DNA of 64,000 bases from an uncultured Bacteroidia bacterium (GTDB taxonomy: Bacteria; Bacteroidota; Bacteroidia; Bacteroidales; UBA932), in assembly GCA_902788095.1 (NCBI GenBank), contig CADAIT010000007.1, positions 1 through 64,000 of the forward strand, written 5' to 3'. The position numbers and the translations under genes were made by a program. Below are positions 34,932-56,377 of the stretch, piece by piece (within the stretch, counting starts at the first letter, position 1; each line of letters begins with the position of its first letter). The notes beneath the pieces are model-generated. The model did not search any database. It saw only the letters and a program-made list of their open reading frames with translations, and was not told the origin of the DNA.

Positions 34932-35151
34932 AAAAAATTTCAGGAAATTAAAAAACTTCCTGACTTCACAGCCGGGAAGTTTTATAACAACAATAAAAGG
35001 ATTTGAACTATCTAACTATAATGGCTCTGTCTTACAGTTTCTGTTGCAAAGGTATATGGATTGCGGCAGCCGCGCAATCACAAAAAGTTGGTACTGGGCG
35101 CGATTTCGCTAAAAACTTATGGTGATTTCGGCGACATCCGGGGAAATTTTG

Positions 35152-35183: not shown

Positions 35184-36509
35184 ATGCCTATTCACACTGA
35201 AAAAACGGAACACAGGGCGGAATCAGCTCGGAAAATGAACGGATGGCTGGCACTGAGCCCGCTTCTCGTGTTTCTGGCCGTGTATCTGCTGGGGTCCATC
35301 GTGGCCCATGATTTTTACAAGGTCCCGGTTGCGGCGGCCTTCATCATCGCCAGCGCATACGCGTTCCTCATCACGCGCGGCGTGGACAAGATCGAAGACA
35401 AAATTTCCATTTTCTCCGAAGGCGCCGGCAACAAGAATGTGTTGCTGATGATTTGGATTTTTGTGCTGGCAGGCGCTTTTGCCGCCACTGCCAAAGACAT
35501 CGGCGCCATCGATGCGACCGTCAATGCGACCCTGCGCGTCCTGCCGGGGAACCTCCTCTATGCGGGACTGTTCCTCGCCTCGTGCTTCATTTCCATGGCC
35601 ATCGGCACCTCCGTGGGGACCATTGTCGCGCTGGTGCCCATTGCTTCCGGCATTGCCACGGAGGCGGGTATCGACATCCCGTTCATGGTCGCCATCATCG
35701 TGGGCGGGGCGTTCTTTGGCGACAACCTCTCCTTCATTTCCGACACCACCGTGGCGGCCACCAAGATGCTAGGCTGCTCCATGCGCGACAAATTCCGCGT
35801 CAACCTGTGGATTGCGGCACCGGCGGCCATTCTGGTGACGGCGTTGTACGTGTTCCTGGGCCTGTCGGTGGAAGCCGTCCCTTCCGCCGCACCGGTGCAG
35901 TGGGTCGGGCTCCTGCCCTATCTGCTGGTGATTGTGCTGGCGCTGGCCGGAGTCAATGTGATGACCGTTCTGGTTATCGGCATCCTTGTGAACGGCATCA
36001 TCGGCTGGAGTACCGGGGCCTATGACTTCGTGGGCTGGATGGCTTCCATCGGCGGCGGTATCGGCTCCATGGGCGAGCTTATCATCGTGTCGCTCCTGGC
36101 GGGCGGCATGCTGGAAATCATCCGGTACAACGGGGGCCTGCAGTTTATTATCGGCAGGATTACCTACCGCATTTCGGGCCGAAGGAAGGCGGCGCTGTCC
36201 ATCGCCGGACTGGTGTCGCTGGTGAACCTGTGCACGGCCAACAACACCATCTCCATCATTACCGTGGGTCCGCTGGCGAAGGACATCACCGAGCGCTACG
36301 GCCTGGATCCGCGCAAGACGGCCTCCATCCTGGACACCTTCTCCTGCCTGGTGCAGGGCATCATCCCCTACGGTGCGCAAATGCTCATGGCCAGCGGTTT
36401 GGCCGGCGTCTCCGCCGTGGCTATCATCGGCCACCTGTACTATCCCTTCGTGCTGGGCGCCGTGGCCTTCCTTTCCATCGTCTTCCGCTTCCCCAGACGC
36501 TATTCTTAA
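35184..36509 (+). CDS. nhaC: NhaC-family Na+/H+ antiporter
   Basis: A 441-residue membrane protein with about 11-12 helices. The family motif is visible in GTSVGTIVALVPIASGIA and GGAFFGDNLSFISDTTVAAT, and again in the second half as LCTANNTISIITVGPLAK and LDTFSCLVQGIIPYGAQM. These match the NhaC superfamily, which exchanges Na+ or organic ions for H+. The ATG at 35184 follows the -7 box. The stop at 36509 lies 2 bases before the first hairpin of a 51-bp repeat array. Confidence 0.9.
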   Translation: MPIHTEKTEHRAESARKMNGWLALSPLLVFLAVYLLGSIVAHDFYKVPVAAAFIIASAYAFLITRGVDKIEDKISIFSEGAGNKNVLLMIWIFVLAGAFAATAKDIGAIDATVNATLRVLPGNLLYAGLFLASCFISMAIGTSVGTIVALVPIASGIATEAGIDIPFMVAIIVGGAFFGDNLSFISDTTVAATKMLGCSMRDKFRVNLWIAAPAAILVTALYVFLGLSVEAVPSAAPVQWVGLLPYLLVIVLALAGVNVMTVLVIGILVNGIIGWSTGAYDFVGWMASIGGGIGSMGELIIVSLLAGGMLEIIRYNGGLQFIIGRITYRISGRRKAALSIAGLVSLVNLCTANNTISIITVGPLAKDITERYGLDPRKTASILDTFSCLVQGIIPYGAQMLMASGLAGVSAVAIIGHLYYPFVLGAVAFLSIVFRFPRRYS

Positions 36510-36511
36510 AC

Positions 36512-36750
36512 CCCGTCCTTGTTTTGGGCCGAATTTGAGGACGAGAGGGCCCAAACCGGGGTCTCGTCCTTGGAAACGGGCATTTTTGAGGACGAGGAGG
36601 GAAAAACCGGGGTGTCGTCCTTGGAAACGGGCATTTTTGAGGATGAGGAGGGCAAAACCGGCGTGTCATCCTTGGAAACGGGCATTTTTGAGGACGAGGA
36701 GGGCAAAACCGGGGTGTCGTCCTTGAATTCGGGCGAAAACAAGGACGAGG
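36512..36750 (+). repeat. 51-bp hairpin array, five hairpins (REPIN-like)
   Basis: Five hairpins with TCCTT starting at 36516, 36567, 36618, 36669 and 36720 give a period of exactly 51. Each has CTCGTCCTT and AAGGACGAG-like arms. The three inner ones share the loop GGAAACGGGCATTTTTG and the tail GAGGAGGGCAAAACC. The outer two differ from them and are inverted versions of each other: left TCCTTGTTTTGGGCCGAATT, right end reversed TCCTTGTTTTCGCCCGAATT. The array sits between the nhaC stop and a feoB fragment. Confidence 0.92.
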
Positions 36751-36754
36751 GCAC

Positions 36755-36939
36755 TTACACCGGCCAGATGAGCAGGCCAATCCGGTAGGCGGCGAAGGCG
36801 CAGACCCAGGCGATGACAATGGTGTAGAGCGCCAGGAGGATGGCCCAGCGCCAGCTCCCGAGCTCGTTTTTGGTGGCCACGAACGTGGCGATGCACGGGA
36901 AGTACAGCAGCACGAACACCATGAACGCCAGGGCGGCGC
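36755..36939 (-). pseudogene. feoB 3'-terminal fragment
   Basis: The minus strand encodes AALAFMVFVLLYFPCIATFV, then ATKNELGSWRWAILLALYTI, then VIAWVCAFAAYRIGLLIWPV and a stop. This matches the last ~61 codons of the intact feoB at 47249 almost residue for residue, with visible DNA divergence (around 85 percent by eye). There is no upstream FeoB sequence. Its stop codon lies 4 bases from the right end of the 51-bp array. At the intact gene, a degenerate copy of the repeat also follows the stop. Confidence 0.93.
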
Positions 36940-36972
36940 CCTTCCGTTTATTAATATCAAGTAGCCCGTGGA

Positions 36973-37036
36973 CGTAAGTCCCGAATCGGTTTATACTTAC
37001 GCGATTACCCCCTGGCCGTTTAAGCTAGGGGGTAAT
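36973..37036. other. Two adjacent hairpins after the 37.1 kb gene
   Basis: CGTAAGT/ACTTACG (36973-37001) and ATTACCCCCT/AGGGGGTAAT (37004-37036) lie downstream of the minus-strand gene ending at 37068. There is no T run, so they may be an mRNA 3' structure or a remnant of a mobile junction beside the feoB fragment. Confidence 0.6.
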
Positions 37037-37067
37037 TCGTTAAAGTGCTATGGAGTGAGGGGGCGGC

Positions 37068-37730
37068 TTAGTCTACCATGCTGCCGTCGGCGGGGTCCAG
37101 GTGGTGCCAGGTGCCGTCTTCCAGTTGGATTTTCAGGCTGGGTTCTCCCTTGAACACATAGTCCTTTACGTCATTGTAGAGGCGCTCGCCGTCAAGCGTG
37201 AAGATAGAATATCCGTCCTTGTCTTTGGGGTGGAAGGATCCCAGAATGAGCGCGTGACCGGGAATCACAGAGAAGATTATATAGCGGGCTTCCCAAAGAT
37301 ATGCAATATCCAACGGATCGCCGGATTGCAGGATAGGAACCAGTTTATCGTCCTCTATCTTGAACACTCCGCACCCCCGGATGAGCCACTTGGTCTTGGG
37401 GTTTTCAATTCCTTTGGCCCAGTAGAACCCGTTTCCTACAACCACCAGTCCCTGTGCTTCCGGAACGTAGCGATCTCCCTCAATAAAGTCTACATCGGTG
37501 TTGGGAAGGAAGACGATGGAACCTTCTTTGTTCTTGAGTTTGGGAGCGGTAACCCAGACACCGGTAGCGTTATCCCAGATAGCCGACACAACAGCCTCAC
37601 TGGTCCATTTGTCTTTGGTCAGTTTGATTTCATAATTGCCGTACTTTTTCCCCAGGTTTTCATTTTTCGTCTGGGCAAACAAGGGGGCTGATACGAGCAC
37701 GGCCAGTGCAAAAAGAGCGAAACGTTTCAT
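37068..37730 (-). CDS. Exported protein of unknown function
   Basis: A 220-residue protein with a signal peptide (MKRFALFALAVLVSAPLFAQ). I do not recognise a family. It has repeated aromatic beta segments (VVSAIWDNATGVWVTAPKLK, GYSIFTLDGERLYNDVKDYV), somewhat like the WG-repeat protein encoded just before it. The ATG at 37730 starts 2 bases after the stop of that gene, so the two are an operon. An upstream in-frame TTG at 37736 overlaps the preceding stop and is less likely. Confidence 0.72.
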   Translation of the reverse strand: MKRFALFALAVLVSAPLFAQTKNENLGKKYGNYEIKLTKDKWTSEAVVSAIWDNATGVWVTAPKLKNKEGSIVFLPNTDVDFIEGDRYVPEAQGLVVVGNGFYWAKGIENPKTKWLIRGCGVFKIEDDKLVPILQSGDPLDIAYLWEARYIIFSVIPGHALILGSFHPKDKDGYSIFTLDGERLYNDVKDYVFKGEPSLKIQLEDGTWHHLDPADGSMVD

Positions 37731-37732
37731 AA

Positions 37733-39694
37733 TCAATATAAATCTGAATAGTTAACAATGGGTCCGGTATAGCCTTCCAAGCCCGGGTTTACGTAATGAT
37801 AGGTTTTGCCGCCCGGCAGGGTGATGTCCATTTCCCCGATTTGCGCAAAGTGCTGATAGATAAACAGTGTCGCTGTCTGCAGCAGATCCTTGGTCCGGAT
37901 CGACGCAAGCGCCTCACGGAAAGACGGGCCCTCCTCGATGGGAACGGACAAATAGTAGATGGGGATGGGCGACAGGTTGCTGGTGAACGGGAAGGCACCC
38001 ATATCGGCATTATAGTCGTGCCAGCCAATGGTCATACCGGTACCGGATTCAGCGGCCTTTTTGATTTGCTCCCGCAGGAAGGCCTTCGGAAAGCCTTCCA
38101 TCTTTTTATCGGCATAAGCCGCATTGGCGGAGGGATCGGCCTGACGTGCCTCGAACTGGGACTGTGTCTCAAACTCGTCCTTTTTGCTTAGGTACTCTTT
38201 GCGTTTGGCCAGGGATAGGAAAACGCAGTCGGTCGTATTCAGCGAGTTCAGGTACAGATAAATCTGGCTGCGTTCCAGGATGAGCGGTTCCAGGATGTAA
38301 CGTCCGTCCGTCCAGTGACAGGCACCCCAGCAGCCATCCTTTTTCACAAAGAACAGCTTTTTACCCACATACTCGCTACCCAGCGGACCAAATTTCAGTA
38401 AATCTGGGTCGTTGTCCACAATCTGGATGCTCTCAAACGCGGGCTCCAGTACCGTCTTCCCCTGGGGGGTGGCAAAGCCGTACAGACCGTTCTGCTCGAA
38501 TACATAGCCGTCCTTGGTAAAGGTGACATCGTCGTAGAGGGCAGGCGTTTTGGTGCCATCGGCAAGGAGTACAAAGTATTTGTCTTCCCCTTCCCTGCGG
38601 GCCGATACGCCGTATTCGTCCACATGGATGCTGCCGTGCTCGAAGGGCAGAATCACCTCTCCCTTGGTGTTCACCAGGCCTGCGTTGCCGTCATCGGCCA
38701 CAGCCCAGGCCCATTTGTTCTTGCCGATGACCGTGCCTACATCTTTGTATTTTACGGGAATGAGCTCCTTGCCGTTGTCGTCGATGATGCCCGCGTGGCC
38801 GTTCTTCCAGACGCAGTTTTGCGTGCCGTAGAACTGGATGCTGTCAAACTGGGGTGTGGCCAGGGGCTTGAGGGTGATTGGGTGCTTCTTGATTTCATCG
38901 GGTCCGGAGCGGGCTACCTTGTACAGCCCCCAGAGGCCGTCTTTCTGCAGCATGAGTTTGTCGGTTTTGAGGGAGAATTCCACATCCTCCGCCGCAAAAG
39001 GAGAGATGATGGTGGCGTGCCCCTTGTAGCACATGCTACCCAGGCCAAATTCATAGACCTGCCATTCCTGCTTTTCTTGTCCTTTTTTGGTCTTTGTCTG
39101 GCAGGTGATTGCGAAGGCCTTGCTCATGTGTTCGCCCATATAAATTTGCTCGAACACGGGCTGGAGAATCCAGAAACCGGACGTGGGCTGGGGGTCTCTC
39201 TTGTGGTTGAAGACATAGGCGTTGTGCCAGATGCCCTTCTTGCCCGTCTTGGGATCCCGGAGGACAACGCAGGTATGGTCGTCGTCGCTGTAATACTCTG
39301 TCTTGAAAGATATTTGGCCGCCGAAGGATTCGTTCCGGTAGTAGTTGTTATCTCCATGGCTGTGGTCCATGGCACTGGTAATGAGGCTGGAGATAGCGCT
39401 GCCTAGAACGGCGGCGCCGGCTCCTATGGTCGCGCCTGTCACCGTAGAGGAAATGGACGAGGAGGAACTACTGCTGGATCCGGATCCGTTACTCCGGTAA
39501 TAGGGGCACCAGTTTTCATGCTGCCAGGGATAGGTAATATTGCCCATGGTGATGCCGCAGTGCGGACAATGCTTTTTTCTCTGGGTGGGATTGGCCGTCG
39601 TCTGTCCAACCGCCTCTCCATGGCCAAGTCCGGCCTGGGCAAAAATGCTCACAGTGGTTAGCAGAGCAAAAAAAGAAACAAGAATTCTTTTCAT
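37733..39694 (-). CDS. Exported WG-repeat protein with N-terminal zinc-finger-like motif
   Basis: A 653-residue exported protein. A signal peptide (residues 1-20) is followed by a Cys/His cluster at about residues 41-65 (KHCPHCGITMGNI, HENWCPYY), a run of eight or more Ser, and a Gly/Ala-rich hydrophobic segment (VTGATIGAGAAVLGSAISSL). From about residue 200 there are WG-type repeats (KDGLWGLYKVA, KNGHAGIIDDNGKELIPVKY, QNGLYGFATPQGKTVLEPAF). WG repeats are common in Bacteroidota surface or periplasmic proteins and have no single function. The ATG at 39694 begins the signal peptide; an open frame extends 41 codons upstream without features. Confidence 0.8.
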   Translation of the reverse strand: MKRILVSFFALLTTVSIFAQAGLGHGEAVGQTTANPTQRKKHCPHCGITMGNITYPWQHENWCPYYRSNGSGSSSSSSSSISSTVTGATIGAGAAVLGSAISSLITSAMDHSHGDNNYYRNESFGGQISFKTEYYSDDDHTCVVLRDPKTGKKGIWHNAYVFNHKRDPQPTSGFWILQPVFEQIYMGEHMSKAFAITCQTKTKKGQEKQEWQVYEFGLGSMCYKGHATIISPFAAEDVEFSLKTDKLMLQKDGLWGLYKVARSGPDEIKKHPITLKPLATPQFDSIQFYGTQNCVWKNGHAGIIDDNGKELIPVKYKDVGTVIGKNKWAWAVADDGNAGLVNTKGEVILPFEHGSIHVDEYGVSARREGEDKYFVLLADGTKTPALYDDVTFTKDGYVFEQNGLYGFATPQGKTVLEPAFESIQIVDNDPDLLKFGPLGSEYVGKKLFFVKKDGCWGACHWTDGRYILEPLILERSQIYLYLNSLNTTDCVFLSLAKRKEYLSKKDEFETQSQFEARQADPSANAAYADKKMEGFPKAFLREQIKKAAESGTGMTIGWHDYNADMGAFPFTSNLSPIPIYYLSVPIEEGPSFREALASIRTKDLLQTATLFIYQHFAQIGEMDITLPGGKTYHYVNPGLEGYTGPIVNYSDLY

Positions 39695-39795
39695 AGTCTT
39701 CGTGTTTTTCGCAAAGGTAAACCTTCTGGAAAACTCTTTTGTGGTGGAATCCGCCACAGGGGCCTGATTTACAAGGTTTTTTCCGGAGGAAGCCG

Positions 39796-39803
39796 TATCT
39801 TTG
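39796..39803 (+). promoter_or_regulatory. -7 promoter box (TATCTTTG) of the broken propeller gene
   Basis: TATCTTTG ends 7 bases before the ATG at 39811, so the promoter of this pseudogene is still intact. Confidence 0.55.
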
Positions 39804-39810
39804 TAAAGGT

Positions 39811-41278
39811 ATGACATGCCTTGCCTTCATCATATCTCTGCTGCTTTGCACCGCCGCATTTTCTGAACTACAGCGCGGCGGACGGGCTGCCGTCCAATAC
39901 GGTTTACGCCATAGCGCAGGGGGCCGATGGTGCCCTATGGATAGGCACCCGGAACGGCCTGGCCCGATTTGACGGCATGCACTTCCAAAGCTGGAAGGAG
40001 TACGGCCGGGTGAATGCGCTTACGGTGGATAAGGCGGGCCGATTGTGGGTAGGGAGCACACAGGGGCTCCGGGTAAGAGATGATGGCATTGCCGGCAACA
40101 TCCGCGCGCTGCACACGGACGCGAAGGGCTATGTTTGGGCCACCGTGGGCGATACGCTGCTGCTGAAACTGTCCTACAAAGACGGTATCCGGGAGGAGGC
40201 CCGCTGCGCTTATGAGAAGCGGGATTCTGAAGGCGACTACCCCTACTATCAAATATATGAGGCGCAGGACGGAAAGCTTCGGATAGCCGGCCGCCTAGTC
40301 TCTAACCAGTATGTAGAAGACAAACAGAGCCCGCATATCACCCTCCCCTCATGGGAAGGGGTGCTGTGCATCGGAAGCTACGCCGAAACCGGCGGAAAGC
40401 TCTACGCGTTTGAGGACCACACCTCCCTCCTTCATACCGTTAAGGCGGGTGCGACCATCTCCCTGGGCCGGCTTCCCATTGCCCACGCCCGGCTTTTGGC
40501 AGACCATAAAGGCCAGCTCTGGGCTGCAGGCTCCTACGGCGTGGGACCGGTCAATACGGAAAAACCGGAAGACACGCCCGTCTATCAAACGGCCTCCACA
40601 GAACTCTACTGCCTCTTCGAGGATCGCCAGGGGAACCTCTGGGTAGGCGGCGATAACGGCCTCTCGGTCCTCTGTCCTGCCCTGCAGCAGGTGCGAACAC
40701 TATCGTCGGCCAACATCAAGGCCCTCCTGGAAGACCATACCGGCAAAATATGGATGGGCCGGGCCGAAGACCGCGTTTCCAGCCTCTACGAAGACCGTAG
40801 CGGCACCGTGTACGTGGGCCTGTGGAACAACACCGGCTGGGAGGTCTGGAAGGACGGCCGCAAAGCATACAAGGACCGCCTTACCGGTCCGCTCCCCAAG
40901 GAGCAGATAGAGGCTCGTTCCCTGGACGGCGCAAACTGGATCTCGGACTTTCTGGAAGACGGAGAAGGCCGTTTCTGGGTGGTCACTTGGGAAGGTGTTG
41001 GCCTCAATGAATGGGATCGCTACGCCCGAAAGAGCCTTCCGCCCCGCTTGCTCAGCCCCTTCCGCTATCCCTCCCTGCAAACCGATACCAACATTTACCT
41101 GAGTTCCCGTCTGGGCAGCCGCCTCATCGAAGATGCCAAGGGAAACCTGGTCTATGCCACCACGCAGACCGGCAAGGACCTCCCTTCCTTGTACAAGGAG
41201 ACCTCCGCCGGCGGCCTGGCCATGCAGTACCGCAACAACAACGTCATCCCCACCGGCCTGGAGTTCCAGGAGGACTAA
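39811..41278 (+). pseudogene. Frameshifted propeller sensor fused to the 3' end of sdaA
   Basis: The ATG at 39811 opens a signal peptide (MTCLAFIISLLLCTAAF). The continuing propeller sequence (LNYSAADGLPSNTVYAIAQG) is in another frame from about 39860; one extra T in the TTTT run near 39858-39861 would explain this. The propeller runs to LGSRLIEDAKGNLVYATT. The next 38 codons (from about 41163) are QTGKDLPSLYKETSAGG to GLEFQED, identical to the C-terminus of the serine dehydratase at 62636. The two DNA stretches differ at about 3 of 114 bases. The helix, kinase and regulator parts expected of such a sensor are absent. Confidence 0.9.
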
Positions 41279-41418
41279 TCCATCCTTGTGTGGGCCCGAG
41301 TTTAAGGACGAGAGACCCATTTAAGGCCTTTCGTCCTTATTTTCGCCCGAATTCAAGGATGACATGCCGGTTTTGGCCTCCTCGTCCTTAAAATCGGCCC
41401 AAAACAAGGACGAGAAGC
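41279..41418. repeat. 51-bp hairpin array, three hairpins, left flank of the transposase
   Basis: Hairpins with TCCTT at 41283, 41334 and 41385 keep the 51-base period. The asymmetric spacer (GAGGCCAAAACCGGCATGTC) reads on the minus strand, so this array is inverted relative to the one at 42442. The hairpin 41381-41414, next to the transposase stop, is the reverse complement of 42442-42475 at 31 of 34 positions. The sdaA-derived stop at 41278 lies 4 bases from the array. Confidence 0.92.
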
Positions 41419-42324
41419 CTATTTGGCGGAGAGGGGGAACAGGTCGTTGACAACCCGGATCGGTAAGTTCATGCATCGGGCAATTTGGGCGTTGCCTGCA
41501 TTGTAATCCCACTTCAGCGTTTTGGCCAATCGCATCTTGTTCTCGTTGGATAACACCTTGGGGCCCTCAACATGATATGTATCCCTGCACAGGCGGAAGA
41601 TAACGCTCCACAACTCTTTATCGTCCAGGAACAACTGTTCACCGTGTCGTTTGGCAATCTCCAGCTGGGACTCAACGTTCTTTAGGGTCCAGTAAACAAA
41701 CTCCCGGGCATTTTCAAACAGGGATTCCACGCGCCGATAATCCGTAAAACTTGACGGCAAGGCCGCACCATTGAGGACACGGATTCTCGGGTCGATTTCC
41801 CCATCGCGCTCATGCTTGAACGCCCGGCGCTGGGTCAAAGTCATGGCAGCGGCCGATTCTCCCTTGGGCATCAGGTCCGGCAAGCCGTTAAAATACAGGT
41901 AGCCACTGCACCATTTATAACTGAAAAGATTCACATTCTGCCTGTCCACAAAGGGGTTTCGGATCACATAAACAATCTCGTCCCTGAGCTGTTTCAGGCT
42001 ACTGATGGGAATCAACTGCGGCGTAGCAGCCATGACCACCCTTGCCCGCCCGTCTGTCCGGTGCAGTTTCAGGAGCCGATTCTGCAGGTCGTCATAAAAT
42101 GCGGCGCAGTCCTCCCTTGCCCCCTCCAGAATGAAATGCAGGTGGTTTTCCATGATGGAGAAAGCGAGGAGCGTGCAGCGGCCTCCATAGGTGGCCAGTG
42201 CAATGAAGTTGAGCATTTCATTGAGCTCCTCCTCTGTCCGGAACAGCAATTCGTCCTCAATTGGTTTGGTGCAAAGGTGATAATACTCTCCTCCTTCAAA
42301 AAACAGTTGTTCACAGCGATTCAT
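41419..42324 (-). CDS. REP-associated tyrosine transposase-like (IS200-type Y1/HUH) protein
   Basis: A 301-residue protein with a Y1_Tnp (HUH) domain in its first half: EYYHLCTKP, the His pair in IMENHLHFILEG (His61, His63) and the likely catalytic Tyr119 in VYVIRNPFVDR. These match the transposases that process REP hairpins (RAYTs), which act as single-strand nickases and joinases. The C-terminal third has a helix-turn-helix-like segment (NAQIARCMNLPIRVVNDLF), which standard RAYTs lack. All catalytic residues appear intact. It is flanked on both sides by inverted copies of 51-bp-period hairpin arrays, its probable substrates. A partly palindromic site lies just upstream (42332-42355). Confidence 0.88.
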   Translation of the reverse strand: MNRCEQLFFEGGEYYHLCTKPIEDELLFRTEEELNEMLNFIALATYGGRCTLLAFSIMENHLHFILEGAREDCAAFYDDLQNRLLKLHRTDGRARVVMAATPQLIPISSLKQLRDEIVYVIRNPFVDRQNVNLFSYKWCSGYLYFNGLPDLMPKGESAAAMTLTQRRAFKHERDGEIDPRIRVLNGAALPSSFTDYRRVESLFENAREFVYWTLKNVESQLEIAKRHGEQLFLDDKELWSVIFRLCRDTYHVEGPKVLSNENKMRLAKTLKWDYNAGNAQIARCMNLPIRVVNDLFPLSAK

Positions 42325-42441
42325 ACAATCAGGCAGGACGATTAATTGTCCCGCCGCAAGATAAGCCTAATTACTGGACTTCATCGTTAGAAACATGAAT
42401 TATTTCAGAAATTTTTCTACCGATTCGTGTGAAACAACATC

Positions 42442-42632
42442 CTCATCCTTGTTTTAGGCCTATTTTAAGGACGAGAAGGGCAAAACCGGCGTCTCGTCCT
42501 TGAAAACGGGCATTTTTGAGGACGAGGAGGGTTAAACCCGGGTGTCATCCTTGAAAACGGGCATTTTTGAGGACGAGGAGGGTAAAACCCGGGTGTCATC
42601 CTTGAAAACGGGCATTTTTGAGGACGAGGAGG
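42442..42632 (+). repeat. 51-bp hairpin array, four hairpins, right flank of the transposase
   Basis: Hairpins with TCCTT at 42446, 42497, 42548 and 42599 repeat every 51 bases. The first (42442-42475) has the outer type of loop (GTTTTAGGCCTATTTT); the next three have the inner type (GAAAACGGGCATTTTTG) and are nearly identical. The tail GAGGAGGGTAAAACCCGGGT separates them. There is no right-end hairpin of the type seen at 36717-36750; the array stops 22 bases before the queH -7 box. Confidence 0.92.
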
Positions 42633-42654
42633 GCGGTGAAACGGGGAAAAGGTG

Positions 42655-42662
42655 TATCTTTG
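42655..42662 (+). promoter_or_regulatory. -7 promoter box of queH (TATCTTTG), leaderless spacing
   Basis: TATCTTTG ends 7 bases before the ATG at 42670 and 22 bases after the last array hairpin, so part of the array edge lies where the -33 region would be. Confidence 0.6.
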
Positions 42663-42669
42663 CAGCGAG

Positions 42670-43242
42670 ATGAAGACACAGGTGCATATTGAGGTGCCGG
42701 GCGGGGCACAGCGGGTGCTGCTGCATGCGTGCTGCGCACCGTGTTCCGGCGCCATCGTGGAATGCCTCATGGAACGGGGCATACGCCCGGTCATCTTCTA
42801 TTCCAATTCCAATATCTTTCCCCGCGAGGAATACGACCATCGACGCAACGAGTGCCTCCGTTACGCCCAAAAATGGAACGTCGAGATTGTGGACGACGTC
42901 TATGACCACGATGCCTGGCGGCTCTGCGCCAAGGGCCTGGAGAAGGAGCCGGAACGCGGAAAACGCTGCCTGGAATGTTTCAAGCAGCGTTTGCTTCGGG
43001 CGGCACAGTATGCCTCCGACAACGGATTCGACGTTCTTGCCACCACCCTGGCCAGTTCACGCTGGAAGGACCTCGAGCAGGTGAATGAAGCCGGCCGATG
43101 GGCCTGTGAACAAGTTTCCGGCGTTACCTGGTGGGCCCAAAACTGGCGCAAGGGCGGACTCCAGGAACGTCGGAATCAAATCATTAAAGAAGAGAACTTC
43201 TACAACCAGCTGTTCTGCGGCTGCGAGTTTTCCCGGTATTAG
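42670..43242 (+). CDS. queH: Epoxyqueuosine reductase QueH
   Basis: A 190-residue QueH-type (DUF208) enzyme that reduces epoxyqueuosine to queuosine in tRNA, unrelated in sequence to QueG. Conserved cysteines likely to bind iron are in LHACCAPCSGAI, KRCLECFKQRL and LFCGCEFS. FYNSNIF-like (IFYSNSNIFPREEYDHRRNE) and ATTLASSRWKDL segments also fit the family. The ATG at 42670 is chosen over an open frame 18 bases upstream that covers the -7 box. The stop overlaps the convergent barrel gene by 4 bases. Confidence 0.93.
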   Translation: MKTQVHIEVPGGAQRVLLHACCAPCSGAIVECLMERGIRPVIFYSNSNIFPREEYDHRRNECLRYAQKWNVEIVDDVYDHDAWRLCAKGLEKEPERGKRCLECFKQRLLRAAQYASDNGFDVLATTLASSRWKDLEQVNEAGRWACEQVSGVTWWAQNWRKGGLQERRNQIIKEENFYNQLFCGCEFSRY

Positions 43243-43910
43243 AAACTGACGCTGATACCGACCTTGATCTGGTGGCGTCCCCTCCCGTAACCCTCAGCCC
43301 TGCACATGTTGAGCAGGGTGTGCTCGTATCCTGCATTTAACTGGAAGTGGCTCACGCCGATGCCGATACCGCCACCCAGAAGGATGTTGAACGGATTGGC
43401 GTCGCCGTCTTTTCCATAGTGGTCAAAGGATTCTCCGGCACCGCGACGGACGCCGGCGATGGAGAAATCGGCCGAAGCGGTGGAGCTGGCCATTGCGCCA
43501 TACTGGAAGGTGGGACCGGCATAGACAAAGAAATTCGCGATGTCGCCGAGGTCGATGTTGAAATTGAAGTTGAGCGGGACGTTGATGTCCAGCTCGGTAT
43601 AATGATAAGTAGCGGCCGCGGAAATCAAGTAGCCGTCATTGACGCCCTTGCCCCACTGTGCACCCTGGAAAAGCATATCGACATAGAGACCGGGGGTAAA
43701 GCCGAAGTACTCTCCCATGCGGACATTGTAACCGGCACCCACATAGAAACCGTTCAGGTGCTCGGGATTCCCGACCGCCTTGCCGTCGCTGCTATTATGG
43801 GTATGATCGATGGCGTGGAGATAACCGGCGCCTATCACCACCTGTGCGTATGCCTGACTGCCGATGAGCAGCATGGCTGCGCCGAAAAGACTTGCAATAA
43901 TTTTTTTCAT
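43239..43910 (-). CDS. Outer-membrane beta-barrel protein
   Basis: A 223-residue protein with signal peptide (KIIASLFGAAMLLIGSQAYAQ) and alternating beta strands of a small OMP_b-brl barrel (VVIGAGYLHAIDH, GFYVGAGYNVRMGEYFGFTP, YTELDINVPLNFNF, ending in QIKVGISVSF). No ligand or function is assigned. It is a paralogue of the next gene upstream, with matching strands and matching HLNGFYVGAGYN / MHGFYLGGTFN segments, and lies 25 bases after it. Confidence 0.82.
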   Translation of the reverse strand: MKKIIASLFGAAMLLIGSQAYAQVVIGAGYLHAIDHTHNSSDGKAVGNPEHLNGFYVGAGYNVRMGEYFGFTPGLYVDMLFQGAQWGKGVNDGYLISAAATYHYTELDINVPLNFNFNIDLGDIANFFVYAGPTFQYGAMASSTASADFSIAGVRRGAGESFDHYGKDGDANPFNILLGGGIGIGVSHFQLNAGYEHTLLNMCRAEGYGRGRHQIKVGISVSF

Positions 43911-43935
43911 TTTTCAGAGATTTTTAAGCGGACGC

Positions 43936-44658
43936 TTAGTCCTGTCCGATGAGAAAGTTGAGGCCGACCTTGAACTGGGAACGGCCGGTGCGTTCTCCGT
44001 CGATGCGGGAAACGTTGAGCAGGCTGTGGTCATACCCCGCCATGATGCGGATGTCGCCCAGCTGCACACCGACGCCGCCGCCGGCATACATGTTGAACGG
44101 ACGCATGTCCGGGTTCTCGCCCCACAGGTGGTCATACTTGTAGGTGTTGCCGGAAGTGGAGTAGAAGATGCGCGCACCTGCGGGGGTGGCGATGGCTCCC
44201 GTAGGAGCGGTAAAGCCTTCCCGGTATGTAGTGCGGGCCAAGGGGGCGAACTGTGCCACCACGCCGCCATAGACAAAAATTCTCACATTGTCGTTGATTT
44301 CAAAGTCGTATGTGAGGTTTACCGGGATATTGAAAGCGAGTTCGCGGTAAAGACCGTTTTTGAAGGTGAACCCGCCCAAGAATCTGTTCTGGTAGTACGC
44401 CGGCTGCTCGCTGTAAAGTTCCTCCTGGAACAACATGTCCAGATAAAAACCGGGAGCGATTCCGAAGTCTCCGGCCAATTTGATATTGAAGGTGCCGCCC
44501 AGGTAAAAGCCGTGCATGGTTTCCCGGAAGGGCTTGGTATCGGGTTTGTCGTAATGGGTGATTTCCGTAGAATTGAGATATCCCACGCCGATATGGAACT
44601 GCGCATGGGCCTGAATGCCAACTAAAAGGGCAGCGACAAGAATTAATACCTTTTTCAT
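43936..44658 (-). CDS. Outer-membrane beta-barrel protein, paralogue
   Basis: A 240-residue exported barrel protein: signal peptide KKVLILVAALLVGIQAHAQ, then FHIGVGYLNSTEITHYD, FGIAPGFYLDMLFQEELY, LAFNIPVNLTYDFEIND and a C-terminal FKVGLNFLIGQD. It is related along its length to the 43239 gene, so the two look like a tandem duplication in one operon. A minus-strand TACATTTG box lies at 44727-44720. Confidence 0.82.
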   Translation of the reverse strand: MKKVLILVAALLVGIQAHAQFHIGVGYLNSTEITHYDKPDTKPFRETMHGFYLGGTFNIKLAGDFGIAPGFYLDMLFQEELYSEQPAYYQNRFLGGFTFKNGLYRELAFNIPVNLTYDFEINDNVRIFVYGGVVAQFAPLARTTYREGFTAPTGAIATPAGARIFYSTSGNTYKYDHLWGENPDMRPFNMYAGGGVGVQLGDIRIMAGYDHSLLNVSRIDGERTGRSQFKVGLNFLIGQD

Positions 44659-44719
44659 CTTTCTATTCGCGTTATAAATTATGCAACCTAAGTTTCGCGC
44701 CTGCGAAAGTTAAATTATA

Positions 44720-44727
44720 CAAATGTA
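44720..44727 (-). promoter_or_regulatory. -7 promoter box (TACATTTG) of the barrel operon
   Basis: TACATTTG on the minus strand 61 bases before the ATG at 44658. Confidence 0.5.
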
Positions 44728-44792
44728 GCGTTTTTTTCGAAATCTTGTCGATTTATCGGTGAGAAATCCGGCAAAATCCCCATTTTTAGGGA

Positions 44793-44823
44793 TTGATTCA
44801 TTGCCGGTTCCGCCGTATCTTTG
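44793..44823 (+). promoter_or_regulatory. Promoter of feoAB
   Basis: TTG at 44793-44795 and TATCTTTG at 44816-44823 are 20 bases apart, 29 bases before the ATG. I do not see a clear Fur box, but did not search systematically. Confidence 0.65.
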
Positions 44824-44852
44824 CGCCCAGCGCAAAAGCAAAACCGACTACT

Positions 44853-47249
44853 ATGATACTTTCAGATTTGCAGACTGGCGAACACGCCGTGATTGTTCGG
44901 GTGAATGGTCATGGAAGCTTCCGTAAACGCCTGATAGAGATGGGATTCATCCAGGGAAAAGAAGTCCGGGTGGTTCTTAACGCCCCCCTCAAGGACCCCA
45001 TCGAATACGAGATTATCGGCTATAAGGTTTCCCTTCGCCGGGAAGAGGCCCGGCAGATTGAGGTGGTGGCGGACACGGAGGCCCGCGAAGCCCTCAAGAC
45101 CGACGAGCACCTGCAGGCCCTGCCCGGAGACTTGGAAGAAAAAGAGCGGCTGGACCGCGCCCTGGCCCATGTGGCCGAAGAGCGGCACCATAATATCCGC
45201 GTGGCGCTGGTGGGCAACCCCAACTGCGGCAAAACCTCCCTGTTCAACATGGCCTCCGGCAGCCACGAACACGTGGGCAACTACTCCGGCGTCACCGTGG
45301 ACGCCAAAGAGGGCCATTTCCGCTTCAAAGGCTACGACATCACCCTGGTGGACCTTCCGGGCACCTATTCGCTGAGCGCCTATTCCCCCGAAGAACTCTA
45401 CGTCCGCAAAAACCTCCTGGAGGCCATGCCGGATGTGGTCATCAATGTGGTGGACGCCTCCAACATCGAACGCAACCTGTACCTGACCACCCAGCTTATC
45501 GACATGAACCTGCGCACCGTGATGGCGCTGAACATGTACGACGAACTCAAGCACAAGGGCGACAAACTGGATACCCGGCAGCTGGGATACCTCCTGGGCA
45601 TGCCCGTTTGCCCCACGGTCAGCCGTGACGGGCAAGGCATCCCGGAGCTCTTCGACACGGTCATCAAAATTTACGAGCAGTCGGCCCCCAAGCTGGCCCG
45701 CCATATCCATATCAACCACGGCGCGGAGCTGGAGAAGAGCATCAAACGCCTGCAGACGATTCTGTACGGCAACGAGAACCTGCGCTCGCGCTTCTCAACG
45801 CGCTACCTGGCCATCAAGTACCTGGAAATGGACAAGGACGTGGAAAACACGCTGGCCGATATTCCGGAGCGCAAGGCGATGCAGCAGGCCCGCGCAGAGG
45901 AAGAGACACGCATCCGGGGGCTGTTGGGAACAAACGTGGAAAGCGCCATTGTGGATGCCAAATACGCCTTCATCCAGGGCGCCCTGGCGGAAACCTACGA
46001 GAAATACCAGGCAGAACGCCCGCGACGCACCATCACGGACCGGATAGACGCCCTGGTCACCAACCAGTGGGCGGCGTTCCCCATCTTCGTGCTGCTGCTG
46101 TGGTTCATCTTCTGGGCCACCTTCACCATCGGCCAGTATCCCATGGACTGGATCGATGCCGGCGTGGCGTGGCTGGGCGAAAAAGTGGGCGGTCTCATGC
46201 ACGACGGCTGGGTGAAAGACCTGGTGGTGGATGGCATCATTGCCGGCGTGGGCAGCGTGCTGGTGTTCCTGCCCAACATCATGATTCTCTACTTCTTCAT
46301 TTCCATCATGGAAGACAGCGGTTACATGGCCCGCGCGGCGTTCATCGTGGATAAACTGATGCACCGGATAGGCCTGCACGGCAAGAGCTTCATCCCCATG
46401 GTGATGGGCTTCGGCTGCAATGTGCCCGCCATCATGGCCACGCGCAGCATCGAGAGCCGCAAGAGCCGTCTGGTCACCATCGCCATCATTCCGTTCATGT
46501 CCTGCGCCGGACGCCTGCCCATCTTCGTGCTTTTTGCCGGCGCTTTCTTCCCGGGGAACCCCGCCACGGCCCTGCTGGGCATCTACCTGCTGGGCATCGT
46601 GCTTGCCATCCTGAGCGCCCTGGTACTGAGCAAGTTCGTCAAGGACGACGACCTCCCGTTCGTGATGGAACTGCCGCCCTACCGCATCCCTACCGCCAAG
46701 GCCATCTGGCGCCACACCTGGGAAAAAGGCAGGCAGTATCTGGAGAAAATGGCCACCACCATCCTCATTTTCTCGGTGGCCATCTGGTTCCTGGGATACT
46801 TCCCGCGCCATGAGGACGCCTCCACGGCCTATCAGCAGGAACATTCCTACATCGGCATGTTGGGCAAGGCTATCGAGCCTATTAACGAACCGCTGGGATT
46901 CAACTGGAAGATGGACGTGGGGCTGCTGGCCGGCGTTGGCGCCAAGGAACTGGTTATCAGCACTATGGGCGTCATGTATGCCCAGGACGGGGAAGAATAT
47001 GAGGGCTTGGGGAACGAGGACGACACCCAGCTGCAGGCAGCCCTGAAAGCCACCGTGCCCACGGCGGCGGCGCTTGCCTTCATGGTGTTCGTGCTGCTCT
47101 ACTTCCCCTGCATCGCAACGTTCGTCGCCTCCAAAAACGAAACCGGCAAGTGGAGCTGGGCCATTCTCCTGGCGCTCTACACCATTGCCGTAGCCTGGGT
47201 CTGCGCCTTTGCCGCCTACCGCATCGGCCTGCTCGTCTGGCCGGTGTAG
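44853..47249 (+). CDS. feoB: FeoA-FeoB fusion, ferrous iron transporter
   Basis: A 798-residue fusion. Residues 1-75 are a FeoA (SH3-like) domain (ILSDLQTGEHAVIVRVNGHG, RKRLIEMGFIQGKEV). A FeoB G domain follows with G1 GNPNCGKTS, G3 DLPGTYS and a G4-like segment ALNMYDEL where NxxD is expected. The membrane part has gate motifs in GFGCNVPAIMATRSIESRKS and MSCAGRLPIFVLFAGAFF, and the protein ends GLLVWPV. It imports Fe2+ across the inner membrane. FeoA-FeoB fusions are usual in Bacteroidota. The ATG at 44853 fits the FeoA start. A second, partial copy of its 3' end lies at 36755. Confidence 0.96.
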   Translation: MILSDLQTGEHAVIVRVNGHGSFRKRLIEMGFIQGKEVRVVLNAPLKDPIEYEIIGYKVSLRREEARQIEVVADTEAREALKTDEHLQALPGDLEEKERLDRALAHVAEERHHNIRVALVGNPNCGKTSLFNMASGSHEHVGNYSGVTVDAKEGHFRFKGYDITLVDLPGTYSLSAYSPEELYVRKNLLEAMPDVVINVVDASNIERNLYLTTQLIDMNLRTVMALNMYDELKHKGDKLDTRQLGYLLGMPVCPTVSRDGQGIPELFDTVIKIYEQSAPKLARHIHINHGAELEKSIKRLQTILYGNENLRSRFSTRYLAIKYLEMDKDVENTLADIPERKAMQQARAEEETRIRGLLGTNVESAIVDAKYAFIQGALAETYEKYQAERPRRTITDRIDALVTNQWAAFPIFVLLLWFIFWATFTIGQYPMDWIDAGVAWLGEKVGGLMHDGWVKDLVVDGIIAGVGSVLVFLPNIMILYFFISIMEDSGYMARAAFIVDKLMHRIGLHGKSFIPMVMGFGCNVPAIMATRSIESRKSRLVTIAIIPFMSCAGRLPIFVLFAGAFFPGNPATALLGIYLLGIVLAILSALVLSKFVKDDDLPFVMELPPYRIPTAKAIWRHTWEKGRQYLEKMATTILIFSVAIWFLGYFPRHEDASTAYQQEHSYIGMLGKAIEPINEPLGFNWKMDVGLLAGVGAKELVISTMGVMYAQDGEEYEGLGNEDDTQLQAALKATVPTAAALAFMVFVLLYFPCIATFVASKNETGKWSWAILLALYTIAVAWVCAFAAYRIGLLVWPV

Positions 47250-47253
47250 TTGC

Positions 47254-47295
47254 GCCCTCCTCCCGTCTCAATTCGGTCCGTTTTTCAGGACGACG
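47254..47295 (-). repeat. Degenerate single copy of the 51-bp repeat after feoB
   Basis: The minus strand reads GTCGTCCTGAAAAACGGACC, then GAATTGAGACGGGAGGAGGGC, which aligns with the unit GTCGTCCTTGGAAACGGGC...GAGGACGAGGAGGGC. It starts a few bases after the feoB stop, just as array 36512-36750 ends beside the feoB fragment stop. Confidence 0.6.
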
Positions 47296-47301
47296 GGACG
47301 G

Positions 47302-49005
47302 CTACCAGACCACCACGTGCTCTCGTTCTGCAACGATGTGGCCTTTGTACTCGTTGAGCTCGGCACCGGAAGGCAGTTCCACCACCAGGATGGCCGTATC
47401 GGCCGGAATGTCCAGCGAGACAATGCCGGAAACGCCCTTGGCGAGGTAATTGCAGCTCACCACGTCAAAGAGATCCGCTTTGGAGGCGGGATAGTAAGAC
47501 ACCGTACGCTTCTCCTCATACGGGTTGTACAGCAGGTGTACGGGATACGGGCGGGCGGCGTAAAAGTCCGTCGCATTGCAGTCCAGGGACAGGATGCCCT
47601 CCACGTCGGTAGTGTTGATGATGGCCCCGAAGATACCCACCGGCGAAGTGCTGTAGAGGCTGAACATGGTCATGGGCGGGTTGCCGGAGAACCAGGACGG
47701 GCCGTCGCCCTCCGCCACCGGCGTAGTGCTTATTTTTCCGTACCGGTCCGTCTTGCGAAGCCCTTCGTAGCCGATGATGCCATGGGTGATATCCTTGATG
47801 TCGGCACATGCCTGGTAGGCATCGTCAATTTCATTGGGGAAGAAAAGTCGGCTGGCGCTGGCGTTGTTGAGCATCCATTTGCCGATGGTGCGGGCGAACT
47901 TGGGCTCGTATTTCACCAGGGGGACCAAAGGCCAGGCCATCTCGTAAGAGTTCATCTGGAAGGCATATCCGCCGCCGTCGGTGATACTCCCCTGCAGGCC
48001 GTACACGTCGTAGGGGCCCCATTTGTCCACAATCACGCCCCAGCCGCGGCGGCCGTTGGAACGATTGCCGTCGAAGGTCCATTCCAGGAGCTGTTTCACG
48101 TCGAAGGACTTGCCCTGCGTAGCGTTGAGGTAAGCGGCGGCATAGGCGCCGAACGGCAGCAGAATCTCGTAGAAGCGGCTCTCCGTCAGGTTGTCCAGCA
48201 CCGTGACCGCATTGATGGCCCGCTCCAGGTAACGTTCGTCGCCGAATTTGTTGTAGGCCTGCAGCAGGACATACGCATGTCCGGCGGCGGCATCCTCCTG
48301 CTTGGGGACCTTGGTGTTGAACCCGTGCATGGAGTAGTAGTTGAAGAAGGTGTAGCTGTAGTTGCTGCCCAGGGTTTCATCGGCCTTGGCGAACTGGTCC
48401 GCCACGCTGCGCTGGATGGCATCGGCCCCTTCCACGCCCGGGAAGAGGTCGCAGACACCGTAGTACAGCAGGTTGGGCAGCACATTGTACCACCAGTCCG
48501 TAGCGGAACCGGAGGTGTTGTTGAGCATGATTTGCCAGCGGTCGTCCACCGAAAAATAGTTCTGCAGCATCTTGGGGTAATTGTACCCGTCCTGCCGCGT
48601 CTTGTCAATGCCGACCAAACCGGCTCCCATGACGGCCGCGATGGTGTTGATGCCTTCGTGCGAACCACCGCCGCCCTGCCTGGCATCCCCCACGGTGGTT
48701 TTGAGGCCGAAGGTTTCCTGGTCGAAATTCTTGCGGGTATTGTCCAGCCAGATGAGGGGCCGAACCTCGTCCTGCGCCGTCCAGTCAAATACATACGCGT
48801 CATAATCCAGGGCTTTCTGCTTCCAGTCCAGCATTTTGTACCCTTCGGGGATGTTGGGCATGGCGATAACCCGGTTGATGTTTACCTGCGGGAAAGAAAT
48901 GCCCAGGACGGCCTCGGTAAATTCAGCGTCCTTGGGGGTGTCCTGGTTGGCGGAGTGGCAGGCTGCCAGAAGCAGCAGGGCCATAAGCGGGGCGAACGTT
49001 TTCAT
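47302..49005 (-). CDS. PUL lipoprotein B of unknown family (putative alpha/alpha-barrel)
   Basis: A 567-residue predicted lipoprotein (LLLLAACHSAN). I do not recognise a named family. It is paralogous to the 54650 gene, roughly half identical by eye, sharing YKMLDWKQKALDYDAYVFDW, DAAAGHAYVLLQAYNKFGD, ESRFYEILLPFGAYAAAYLN, GLQGSITDGGGYAFQMNS, WPLVPLVKYEPKFARTIGKW and VGIFGAIINTTDVEGIL. Regularly spaced helix pairs with aromatic and acidic residues recall the alpha/alpha-toroid of several glycosidases and lyases. It is the last gene of the SusCD operon, after the LamG lipoprotein. It may be a glycan-active enzyme or a binding protein. Confidence 0.72.
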   Translation of the reverse strand: MKTFAPLMALLLLAACHSANQDTPKDAEFTEAVLGISFPQVNINRVIAMPNIPEGYKMLDWKQKALDYDAYVFDWTAQDEVRPLIWLDNTRKNFDQETFGLKTTVGDARQGGGGSHEGINTIAAVMGAGLVGIDKTRQDGYNYPKMLQNYFSVDDRWQIMLNNTSGSATDWWYNVLPNLLYYGVCDLFPGVEGADAIQRSVADQFAKADETLGSNYSYTFFNYYSMHGFNTKVPKQEDAAAGHAYVLLQAYNKFGDERYLERAINAVTVLDNLTESRFYEILLPFGAYAAAYLNATQGKSFDVKQLLEWTFDGNRSNGRRGWGVIVDKWGPYDVYGLQGSITDGGGYAFQMNSYEMAWPLVPLVKYEPKFARTIGKWMLNNASASRLFFPNEIDDAYQACADIKDITHGIIGYEGLRKTDRYGKISTTPVAEGDGPSWFSGNPPMTMFSLYSTSPVGIFGAIINTTDVEGILSLDCNATDFYAARPYPVHLLYNPYEEKRTVSYYPASKADLFDVVSCNYLAKGVSGIVSLDIPADTAILVVELPSGAELNEYKGHIVAEREHVVVW

Positions 49006-54666: not shown

Positions 54667-56377
54667 ACGAGATTATGTGATTGTTTACACTCAAATTTCC
54701 TTGTTGGTCCCGCTCGATGCGGCTGCCGGCCGGCAGTTCCACCACGACGACAGAGGCGTCGGCAGGCAGGGTGACGGAAGCGCTTTCCGTCACGCCTTTG
54801 GCCAGATAGGTACGGGAGACGATGTCAAAGAGGTCCTTTCGGCCGTCTTTCACGGTGTAGGTGACGGAAGTGGCGCCGAAGGGATTGTACATCAGATATA
54901 CCGGGAACGGCTTGTCGGCATAGAAATCCGTCGCGTTGCAGTTCAGGCGGAGAATGCCTTCCACGTCGGTGGTTTCCACGATGGCGCCGAAAATACCCAC
55001 CGCACCTGTGCTATAGAGGCTGAACATGCTCTCCTTGGGGTTTTTGTCGGTCCAGCGGGGACCGTCGCCCAGGGCGATGGGATGCAGGCCCTTGTGCGCC
55101 TCCACGTCGTAGAGGTTGTCCTCGTAGCGGAGCCCCTCATACCCGACGATGGAGTTGGTATAGTCCTGCATGCCGGGCAGGCACTGGAGCGAATCCGGCA
55201 GCTGGTCCGGGAAGAACAGGCGGCAGTTGTTCACGTTGTTGAGCATCCAGCGGCCGATGCTGCGGGCATACCGGGGTTCATATTTGACCAGCGGCACAAA
55301 AGGCCAGGCCACGTCGATGGAGTTCATCAGGAAGGCGAAGCCGCCACCGTCGGTGAGGCTGCCCTGCAGGCCGCTGATTTCATAGTCGCCCCACTTGCCG
55401 GCCGTGATGCCCCAGCCGGTGCGGCCGTCGGAAGCCGTACAGCCGTCAAACACCCAATCCAGCATTTTGGCGGTGTCAAAGCGGCAGCCCTGCTCCGCAT
55501 TCAGACGGGCGGCGGTGTAGATGCCCATCGGCAGGAGAATCTCGTAAAATCGGCTCTCCTTTTGGCCCTCCAGGGCTTTCAGGGCCGATATGGCCCGCTC
55601 CAGGTAGCGCTGTTCTCCGTATTTCCGATAGGCGCTGTACAGGACCCAGGCATGGCCGCCGGCGGCGTCCTGCTGCTTGGGAATCCAGTTGTTGCAGCCT
55701 TTCATCTGCGCATAGTCGAAATAGGTGAAATCGTAGTTGCCGTCCAGCACTTCGTCCGCGGCGGCGAACTGGTCCGCAACGGTGTGAAGGATTTCATCGG
55801 CGCCGTCCACGCCGGGAAAGACTTCGCTCACGGCATAGAACAGGATGTTGGGATATACGTCGTACCACCAGTCGCGGCCGTAACCGCCACCCAGCAGAGC
55901 CACTTCGGGGCAGGTATTGTTCATTACAATGTTCCAGCCGTTGTCGCTGTTGAAGTAGTTTTGCGACATTTTCACGAAGTTGAAACCGTGCTGGCTGGTT
56001 TTGTCGATGCCGTTGAGGCCGGCGCCCAGCAGGGTGTGCAGGATGTTCAGGCTCTCGTGGAACTCACCGTTGTTGTTATGGGGTCCCTGGCGGCTGTCCT
56101 TCATGGCCGTGTACAGGCCGAAGGTCACCTGGTCCACATTGCGGCGGGCGCTGTCCAGCCAGATTACCGGACCGGCGGGAAGCGTGCTGTTGAAGTCGAA
56201 GGCATAGGCATCGAAGTCCAGGGCTTTCTGCTTCCAGTCCAAAATTTTGTACGGCTGCGGGAAGGCGGCCATTTTCTCCACACGCGGAATGCTGTACTGG
56301 GCAACAGGCTCACCGTAATATGCAGCCGTGCAGGAAAGGGCGGCAAAGCCCAGGATGGCAAAGCTTAAGCGTCTCAT
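54650..56377 (-). CDS. PUL lipoprotein A of unknown family (putative alpha/alpha-barrel)
   Basis: A 575-residue predicted lipoprotein (ILGFAALSCTAAY), paralogue of the 47302 gene. Shared segments include YKILDWKQKALDFDAYAFDF, GRDWWYDVYPNILFYAVSEV, QQDAAGGHAWVLYSAYRKYG, SRFYEILLPMGIYTAARLNA, GSLTDGGGFAFLMNS and ATDFYADKPFPVYLMYNP. I know of no characterised member. It sits between the MFS transporter and SusC, overlapping both slightly, so it is in the PUL operon. The two paralogues flanking the SusCD genes suggest they act on the same glycan, perhaps at different linkages or on different sides of the outer membrane. Confidence 0.72.
   Translation of the reverse strand: MRRLSFAILGFAALSCTAAYYGEPVAQYSIPRVEKMAAFPQPYKILDWKQKALDFDAYAFDFNSTLPAGPVIWLDSARRNVDQVTFGLYTAMKDSRQGPHNNNGEFHESLNILHTLLGAGLNGIDKTSQHGFNFVKMSQNYFNSDNGWNIVMNNTCPEVALLGGGYGRDWWYDVYPNILFYAVSEVFPGVDGADEILHTVADQFAAADEVLDGNYDFTYFDYAQMKGCNNWIPKQQDAAGGHAWVLYSAYRKYGEQRYLERAISALKALEGQKESRFYEILLPMGIYTAARLNAEQGCRFDTAKMLDWVFDGCTASDGRTGWGITAGKWGDYEISGLQGSLTDGGGFAFLMNSIDVAWPFVPLVKYEPRYARSIGRWMLNNVNNCRLFFPDQLPDSLQCLPGMQDYTNSIVGYEGLRYEDNLYDVEAHKGLHPIALGDGPRWTDKNPKESMFSLYSTGAVGIFGAIVETTDVEGILRLNCNATDFYADKPFPVYLMYNPFGATSVTYTVKDGRKDLFDIVSRTYLAKGVTESASVTLPADASVVVVELPAGSRIERDQQGNLSVNNHIISYEKAN

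Follow-up and report, generated by a model that had tools for sequence, protein, structure and literature searches.

Palindrome arrays of 51-bp pitch flanking a Y1/HUH transposase gene in uncultured Bacteroidales

How does a transposase gene come to lie between two strictly regular arrays of palindromes, and do the gene and the arrays belong to one system? The question is raised by a locus in the window (the whole stretch of 64,000 nucleotides analysed here, from an uncultured bacterium of the Bacteroidales), and it touches on what the REP/RAYT field asks more generally, namely by what route REPs disperse and what preserves a transposase that seemingly does not move itself. The reading favored here, with a probability of about three in four, is that of a REPtron-like system, in which a low-copy transposase is flanked by arrays of its own palindrome and the palindrome has spread through the genome.

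The transposase and its flanking arrays

The gene of the Y1/HUH transposase (TnpA) occupies positions 41419-42324 on the minus strand and encodes 301 amino acids without an internal stop. Three palindromes lie on its 3' side (41279..41417, with palindromes at 41281, 41332 and 41383) and four on its 5' side (42440..42634, at 42444, 42495, 42546 and 42597), and an exact step of 51 bp is kept at all seven, as the initial annotation of the intact reading frame between two arrays had it. A third array of the same unit (36511..36750, with palindromes at 36515, 36566, 36617, 36668 and 36719, again in steps of 51) has no adjoining tnpA. The inverted relationship of the flanking arrays, also claimed initially, is borne out, with the reverse complement of 41381-41414 matching 42442-42475 at 31 of 34 positions and the match extending into the spacer, compared with a best 34-mer of 21 in 40 mononucleotide-shuffled pairs. 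By eye, the outer and inner hairpins of the arrays flanking tnpA seem to differ.

Folded as DNA, 41279-41417 and 42440-42530 give z-scores of -6.4 and -4.3, respectively; another of the six folded stretches (L129) is no better than shuffles (z +0.14). In 29 dispersed doublets, a set in which orthologous sites were kept, the 28-bp hairpin and the spacer are alike in having a center of about 14 nt that is largely unpaired, between outer arms that pair well. Furthermore, the central stem of the minimum-energy folds is centered on the spacer in five of the six stretches, so an equally possible reading of the array is one of boxes CTCGTCCTT and AAGGACGAG that alternate with a spacing of about 25.5 bp. 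The GT[AG]G 5' foot is absent from the consensus of the 29 doublets, which has CTC before the first box and neither GTAG nor GTGG there.

The catalytic residues of the protein are conserved. TnpA carries the motifs N60-H61-L62-H63 (HuH being residues 61-63) and Y119-V-I-R-N-P, and M58, H61, H63, Y119 and N123 are invariant in all 82 aligned relative ORFs (82 of 86 loci, L052, L053, L057 and L117 having been dropped), with R122 kept in 79 of them. The Y---NP of the window TnpA retains its Asn in 82/82 relatives and its Pro in only 42/82; the relatives have a median length of 301 residues and the signature Y-V/I/T-x-R-N. Pfam and NCBIfam models mostly miss this protein in uncultured Bacteroidales: the window TnpA scores 14.5 bits with Y1_Tnp (cut-off 23 bits) and 19.5 bits with REP_Tyr_transpos (cut-off 80 bits), and among 10 further family members one passes the former model and none the latter. 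A search of solved chains by sequence returned no match to TnpA. In a weak structure model built from five sequences (mean pLDDT 57), the best Foldseek match in the PDB is 4ER8, a TnpA_REP with its REP hairpin (E 3.1e-4); IS608, ISDra2 and further Y1 transposases come next, at E > 0.001.

The model also places a helical domain at the C-terminus, with four helices between residues 235 and 295 (block pLDDT 60-85). The initial annotation had called this region a helix-turn-helix foreign to described relatives, and of that description the first part is unconfirmed and the second unsupported. No Pfam HTH match is found in the window TnpA or in the 10 further members, and the weak model shows helices only, which makes a helix-turn-helix a guess; moreover, subclass 2.1 of TnpA_Y1 (Quentin et al. 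2018) does have a C-terminal HTH, reported without REPs (PMC6006769).

At E <= 0.001, 70 of the 149 family-sample genomes have TnpA matches, as do 87 of the 101 in the genus sample, often with several per genome; among the relatives, L062 is 40% identical. In samples of 395 genomes from the phylum and 295 from the order, at a threshold (E <= 1e-5) that would miss the most distant members, the matches are confined to the bacterium's own genome, one member of its genus and three partial core matches. Outside the taxonomic family these samples give only partial core matches at that threshold, in keeping with the separate lineage that had been suggested.

The paralogues of TnpA in its own genome are only 19-28% identical to it, and the gene is therefore unlike a multi-copy insertion sequence. 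If the element were an IS200/IS605 insertion sequence whose ends had been amplified, the shared catalytic fold and the inverted palindromes on both sides would be accounted for. This is nevertheless very improbable, given the low identity of those paralogues, a gene neighborhood that is shared, though rearranged, in relatives with tnpA at 86-98% identity, and palindromes dispersed without the gene. As a candidate it was rejected on copy number, no near-identical whole copies being found in the own genome.

Dispersal of palindromes and their partner transposases

A fixed 28-bp pattern of the window's palindrome, adopted after an earlier wide pattern had been discarded (33 matches versus 74 in its reversed control), has 28, 47, 37 and 23 matches in four genomes with a tnpA at 86-100% identity. 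The reversed pattern has none in the same four genomes, and the remaining 148 family-sample genomes have 0-4 matches each. One further genome, G188, is the same as G150 and was counted once. The dispersed forms comprise single units, doublets of about 85 bp and longer arrays. Palindromes are found at 23 examined sites in G149, where 17 of the 23 sites are multi-unit; by pattern, multi-unit sites make up 5/12 in G151, 3/6 in G000 and 3/10 in G156, or 28 of 51 dispersed sites over the four genomes, a count that covers the fetched sites and in which degenerate partners of some single units may have been missed.

The palindrome is thus dispersed and enriched with a close tnpA, and the REP/RAYT-like association proposed in the initial annotation is supported. 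Its expectation that the frequency of the unit would follow the transposase gene holds in part, the frequency being unequal in the family sample while seven genomes of the genus sample have the palindrome but no close tnpA (14 matches in G156, and 10, 7, 20, 18, 25 and 11 in G183, G189, G205, G227, G233 and G238, respectively). Strict co-occurrence is ruled out by these seven. All of them except G156 have tnpAs of only about 27-39% identity among the matches listed, and in G227 the tnpA flanked by the palindromes is about 35% identical, so that part of the non-co-occurrence reflects the use of a similar box by more distant members. In G205 (L164), palindromes of the GTCCT type keep a 52-bp step, and the tnpA matches listed reach no more than about 27% identity. 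A single palindrome forms the junction between the antiporter gene and QueH in G156, where the 13 kb read contain no tnpA. A decay of arrays to single units after loss of tnpA was considered on the strength of the multi-unit fractions of G156 and G149 (3/10 versus 17/23, Fisher P 0.026); it is unsupported, since the comparison of G156 with the tnpA-bearing G151 (5/12) shows no difference (P 0.67).

Other transposases of the family have palindromes of their own. Across the 149 genomes, RTCCAT-N16-ATGGAY occurs 55 times in G114, 16 times in G034, 7 times in G037 and at most 6 times elsewhere, and GTGAGY-N15-RCTCAC occurs 58 times in G114, 14 times in G067 and at most 4 times elsewhere except in G076. 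The palindromes are specific to particular transposases: in G114, G034 and G067 a tnpA is flanked by the palindrome that is enriched there (L069, L043, L035, L073), in G037 a tnpA is flanked by a related palindrome (L044), and in G114 the two palindromes coexist, each flanking its own tnpA. The 16 matches in G076 belong to a different, unrelated palindromic repeat on a 48-bp step.

The pairing of palindromes with transposases resembles that in described systems, in which TnpA_REP groups co-evolve with their REPs (PMC8266576). The likeness to REPtrons extends to a Y1/HUH protein of low copy number (with Y---NP in the window TnpA) that is flanked by its own dispersed palindrome family, to the occurrence of singlets, doublets and clusters, and to the presence in one genome of several families that each have a transposase of their own. 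Compared with REPtrons, the present elements lack the GT[AG]G foot, have boxes at both ends, and encode a protein of 301 aa with a C-terminal helical domain. In the REPtron-like reading, the TnpA with this domain would recognise its own palindrome and may cut and join single-stranded palindrome DNA.

Other known groups recall the present elements in some features. The long proteins with a C-terminal helix-turn-helix of subclass 2.1 and of the TIRYTs recall the present one, for which the weak model shows helices only, and some TIRs of TIRYTs are likewise self-complementary and repeated in dimers or clusters (PMC3733652). Those proteins have the signatures YIELNP and Y[IV]HLNP, a 51-bp lattice was not found described for either group, and subclass 2.1 has no reported counterpart to the palindrome arrays beside tnpA. 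Subclass 2.6, also from Bacteroidetes, has atypical secondary structures next to the gene that recur elsewhere (PMC6006769), but its proteins have a median of 179 aa and the signature YIH[QN]NP, in contrast to the median of 301 aa and the Y-V/I/T-x-R-N motif here, and no array pitch was found described there. CGTC-tagged REPs were considered as well, for CGTC occurs in the window palindrome; they carry the tag unpaired and have no associated transposase (PMC3733652), and membership is ruled out by the position of CGTC here, inside the paired box at both ends.

The 51/52-bp pitch

The regular step is not confined to the window's palindrome. Among neighbors less than 200 bp apart in the matches listed, a step of 51 bp is found in 15/18 cases in G149, 6/8 in G151, 5/5 in G034, 11/12 and 7/9 in G114, and 5/6 in G227; in G205 the step is 52 bp in 6/6 among the matches listed. 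In the near flanks of 76 tnpA loci (600 bp each; 76 of 77 loci, L029 being left out for want of a tblastn match), 57 of 150 flanks are self-similar at >= 62%, 39 of them at 51, 52, 102 or 104 bp. Far flanks, taken 1.6-2.2 kb away and restricted to long enough stretches, are self-similar in 6 of 83 cases, with 2 at 51 or 102 bp (Fisher P 1.2e-6 for the named periods, with loci taken as independent of relatedness). When the transposases are grouped at 70% protein identity, 37 of the 63 clusters have a self-similar flank, with 22 of the 37 at 51, 52, 102 or 104 bp, compared with 6 self-similar among 39 clusters in the far-flank control, 2 of these at 51 or 102 bp.

The pitch is kept over unrelated palindromes, as 210 of the 231 unit-to-unit comparisons stay within the 99th percentile of shuffles. 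Judged by sequence, the palindrome changes with the transposase while the pitch is kept. The regularity is partial across the family: of the 86 tnpA loci, 35 lack a flank that reaches the threshold of self-similarity and 17 have another period. In a midpoint-rooted tree, 25 of the 26 loci with period 51 fall on one side of a branch with support 87/88, a side of 46 rows that includes 12 without a periodic flank, and the other 36 rows comprise 22 with no period, 9 with another period, 4 with period 52 and 1 with period 51.

The novelty claimed for the arrays in the initial annotation needs qualification. Ordered tandem clusters of REPINs are known from P. fluorescens SBW25, where doublets measure 71 or 110 bp and the GI-GIII arrays repeat every 184 bp (PMC3116915), and to that extent arrays as such are not new. 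What differs is the pitch of 51/52 bp across unrelated palindromes. Among the open-access papers listed in literature searches, we found neither a 51-bp palindrome lattice beside a Bacteroidales Y1 transposase nor any description of a pitch maintained over unrelated palindromes.

The kept pitch hints at a conserved length rule in such elements. Within a REPtron-like system it could reflect the geometry of a protein-DNA complex, for instance about five helical turns, or two hairpins per complex. A more specific version, tentative and held at less than even odds, is that the complex acts as a ruler, gauging 51 or 52 nt from one palindrome to the next, with units added or removed singly, the pitch passing on with the protein and the palindrome sequence being free to change; if true, this would be a RAYT-class system that replicates by a lattice step and not as a fixed doublet. 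Represented more than once per genome across many species, and keeping one spacing while the palindrome changes, the family offers many natural transposase-palindrome pairs for testing recognition, unit length and co-divergence.

Orthologous sites and the rearranged gene block

Comparison of orthologous places reveals two empty sites. At 35135..35136 the window lacks a two-palindrome element that is present in L061 (~8420-8512), and at the second site three units are found in G149 and G000 and none in G150, G151 and G156. Insertion junctions and target duplications were sought at both empty sites and are not readable because the flanks have diverged. In the favored reading, ready-made doublets or triplets would be inserted. 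The comparison with empty sites that the initial annotation had called for is favorable in part; local gain and loss of 51-bp units is also seen at occupied sites.

Whole-unit steps are observed at two of the occupied sites. The first has one unit in G156, two in G149 and G150, and three in G000 and G151, in 51-bp steps. The second, in the 3-dehydroquinate synthase gene, has two units in G000, G149 and G156 and three in G150, again in 51-bp steps, as well as a 33-bp internal deletion in G151; all changes at this site (L019, L135, L149, L157, L202) are multiples of three bases, and both 51 and 33 bp preserve the reading frame. At a third occupied site, with two units in G149 and G150 and one in G000, the length difference is inexact. 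Exact 51-bp steps at every orthologous site are thus ruled out by the deletion in G151 and by this third site. A palindrome also lies in frame in atpG (ATP synthase gamma, Pfam ATP-synt), with one unit in G151 and G156 and two in G150 (L151, L161, L200). In G149 and G000 an unrelated loop occupies the position of the palindrome in atpG.

Whole-unit copy changes of this kind, seen also where the element lies far from tnpA, are what would be expected if the palindromes were a host-driven satellite, that is, dispersed terminators or protein-binding sites forming arrays by slippage or unequal recombination, with the transposase as a bystander, and the 14 palindromes retained in G156 without a close tnpA point the same way. 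This explanation is nonetheless unlikely, as several unrelated palindromes are each enriched where they flank a tnpA, self-similarity is concentrated in the near flanks (57/150 versus 6/83), and slippage or recombination by itself would not account for a single pitch shared by unrelated sequences. In the REPtron-like system favored here, arrays would lengthen and shorten by single units, each palindrome being acted on at the same phase by TnpA, slippage or recombination.

The genes around tnpA form a block of Na+/H+ antiporter, FeoB, OMP, QueH, tnpA and serine dehydratase (35184-47263 and 62636-63880 in the window), and the neighborhood is common to relatives with a tnpA at 86-98% identity, though rearranged. 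Between the window and L059, L060, L061 and L212 the order from antiporter to serine dehydratase varies, and many of the junctions carry palindromes. Two duplicate fragments of gene 3' ends adjoin arrays in the window: one of FeoB (36743..36937, minus strand, 85% identical to 47067-47263) beside the third array, and one of serine dehydratase (41164..41285, plus strand, 97% identical to 62629-62750, the source gene being 62636-63880) beside the array 3' of tnpA. The rearranged block may reflect MAG misassembly at repeats.

Arrays that flank tnpA, in a block rearranged with palindromes at its junctions, would also suit an array that serves mainly as a cis-acting site for tnpA (bound, for example, by its C-terminal domain), its dispersal being a by-product of recombination. 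We regard this as improbable, more so than a host satellite, in view of the 23 examined palindrome sites in G149, the palindromes inside atpG and the 3-dehydroquinate synthase gene in this group, and the presence or absence of elements that the empty sites show.

Several smaller observations concern the same block. At another junction of the antiporter/FeoB/tnpA block in G156 (L212, 8910-9030) there is a palindrome doublet of a different kind, which resembles one beside L028, another tnpA of the window's genome. In L061 (~1217) the FeoB and serine dehydratase genes converge so that their stop codons overlap, and there is no array; in the window a 15-kb stretch lies between them. Finally, 47522-48841 and 54882-56252 of the window are 67% identical over about 1.3 kb and are perhaps paralogous genes.
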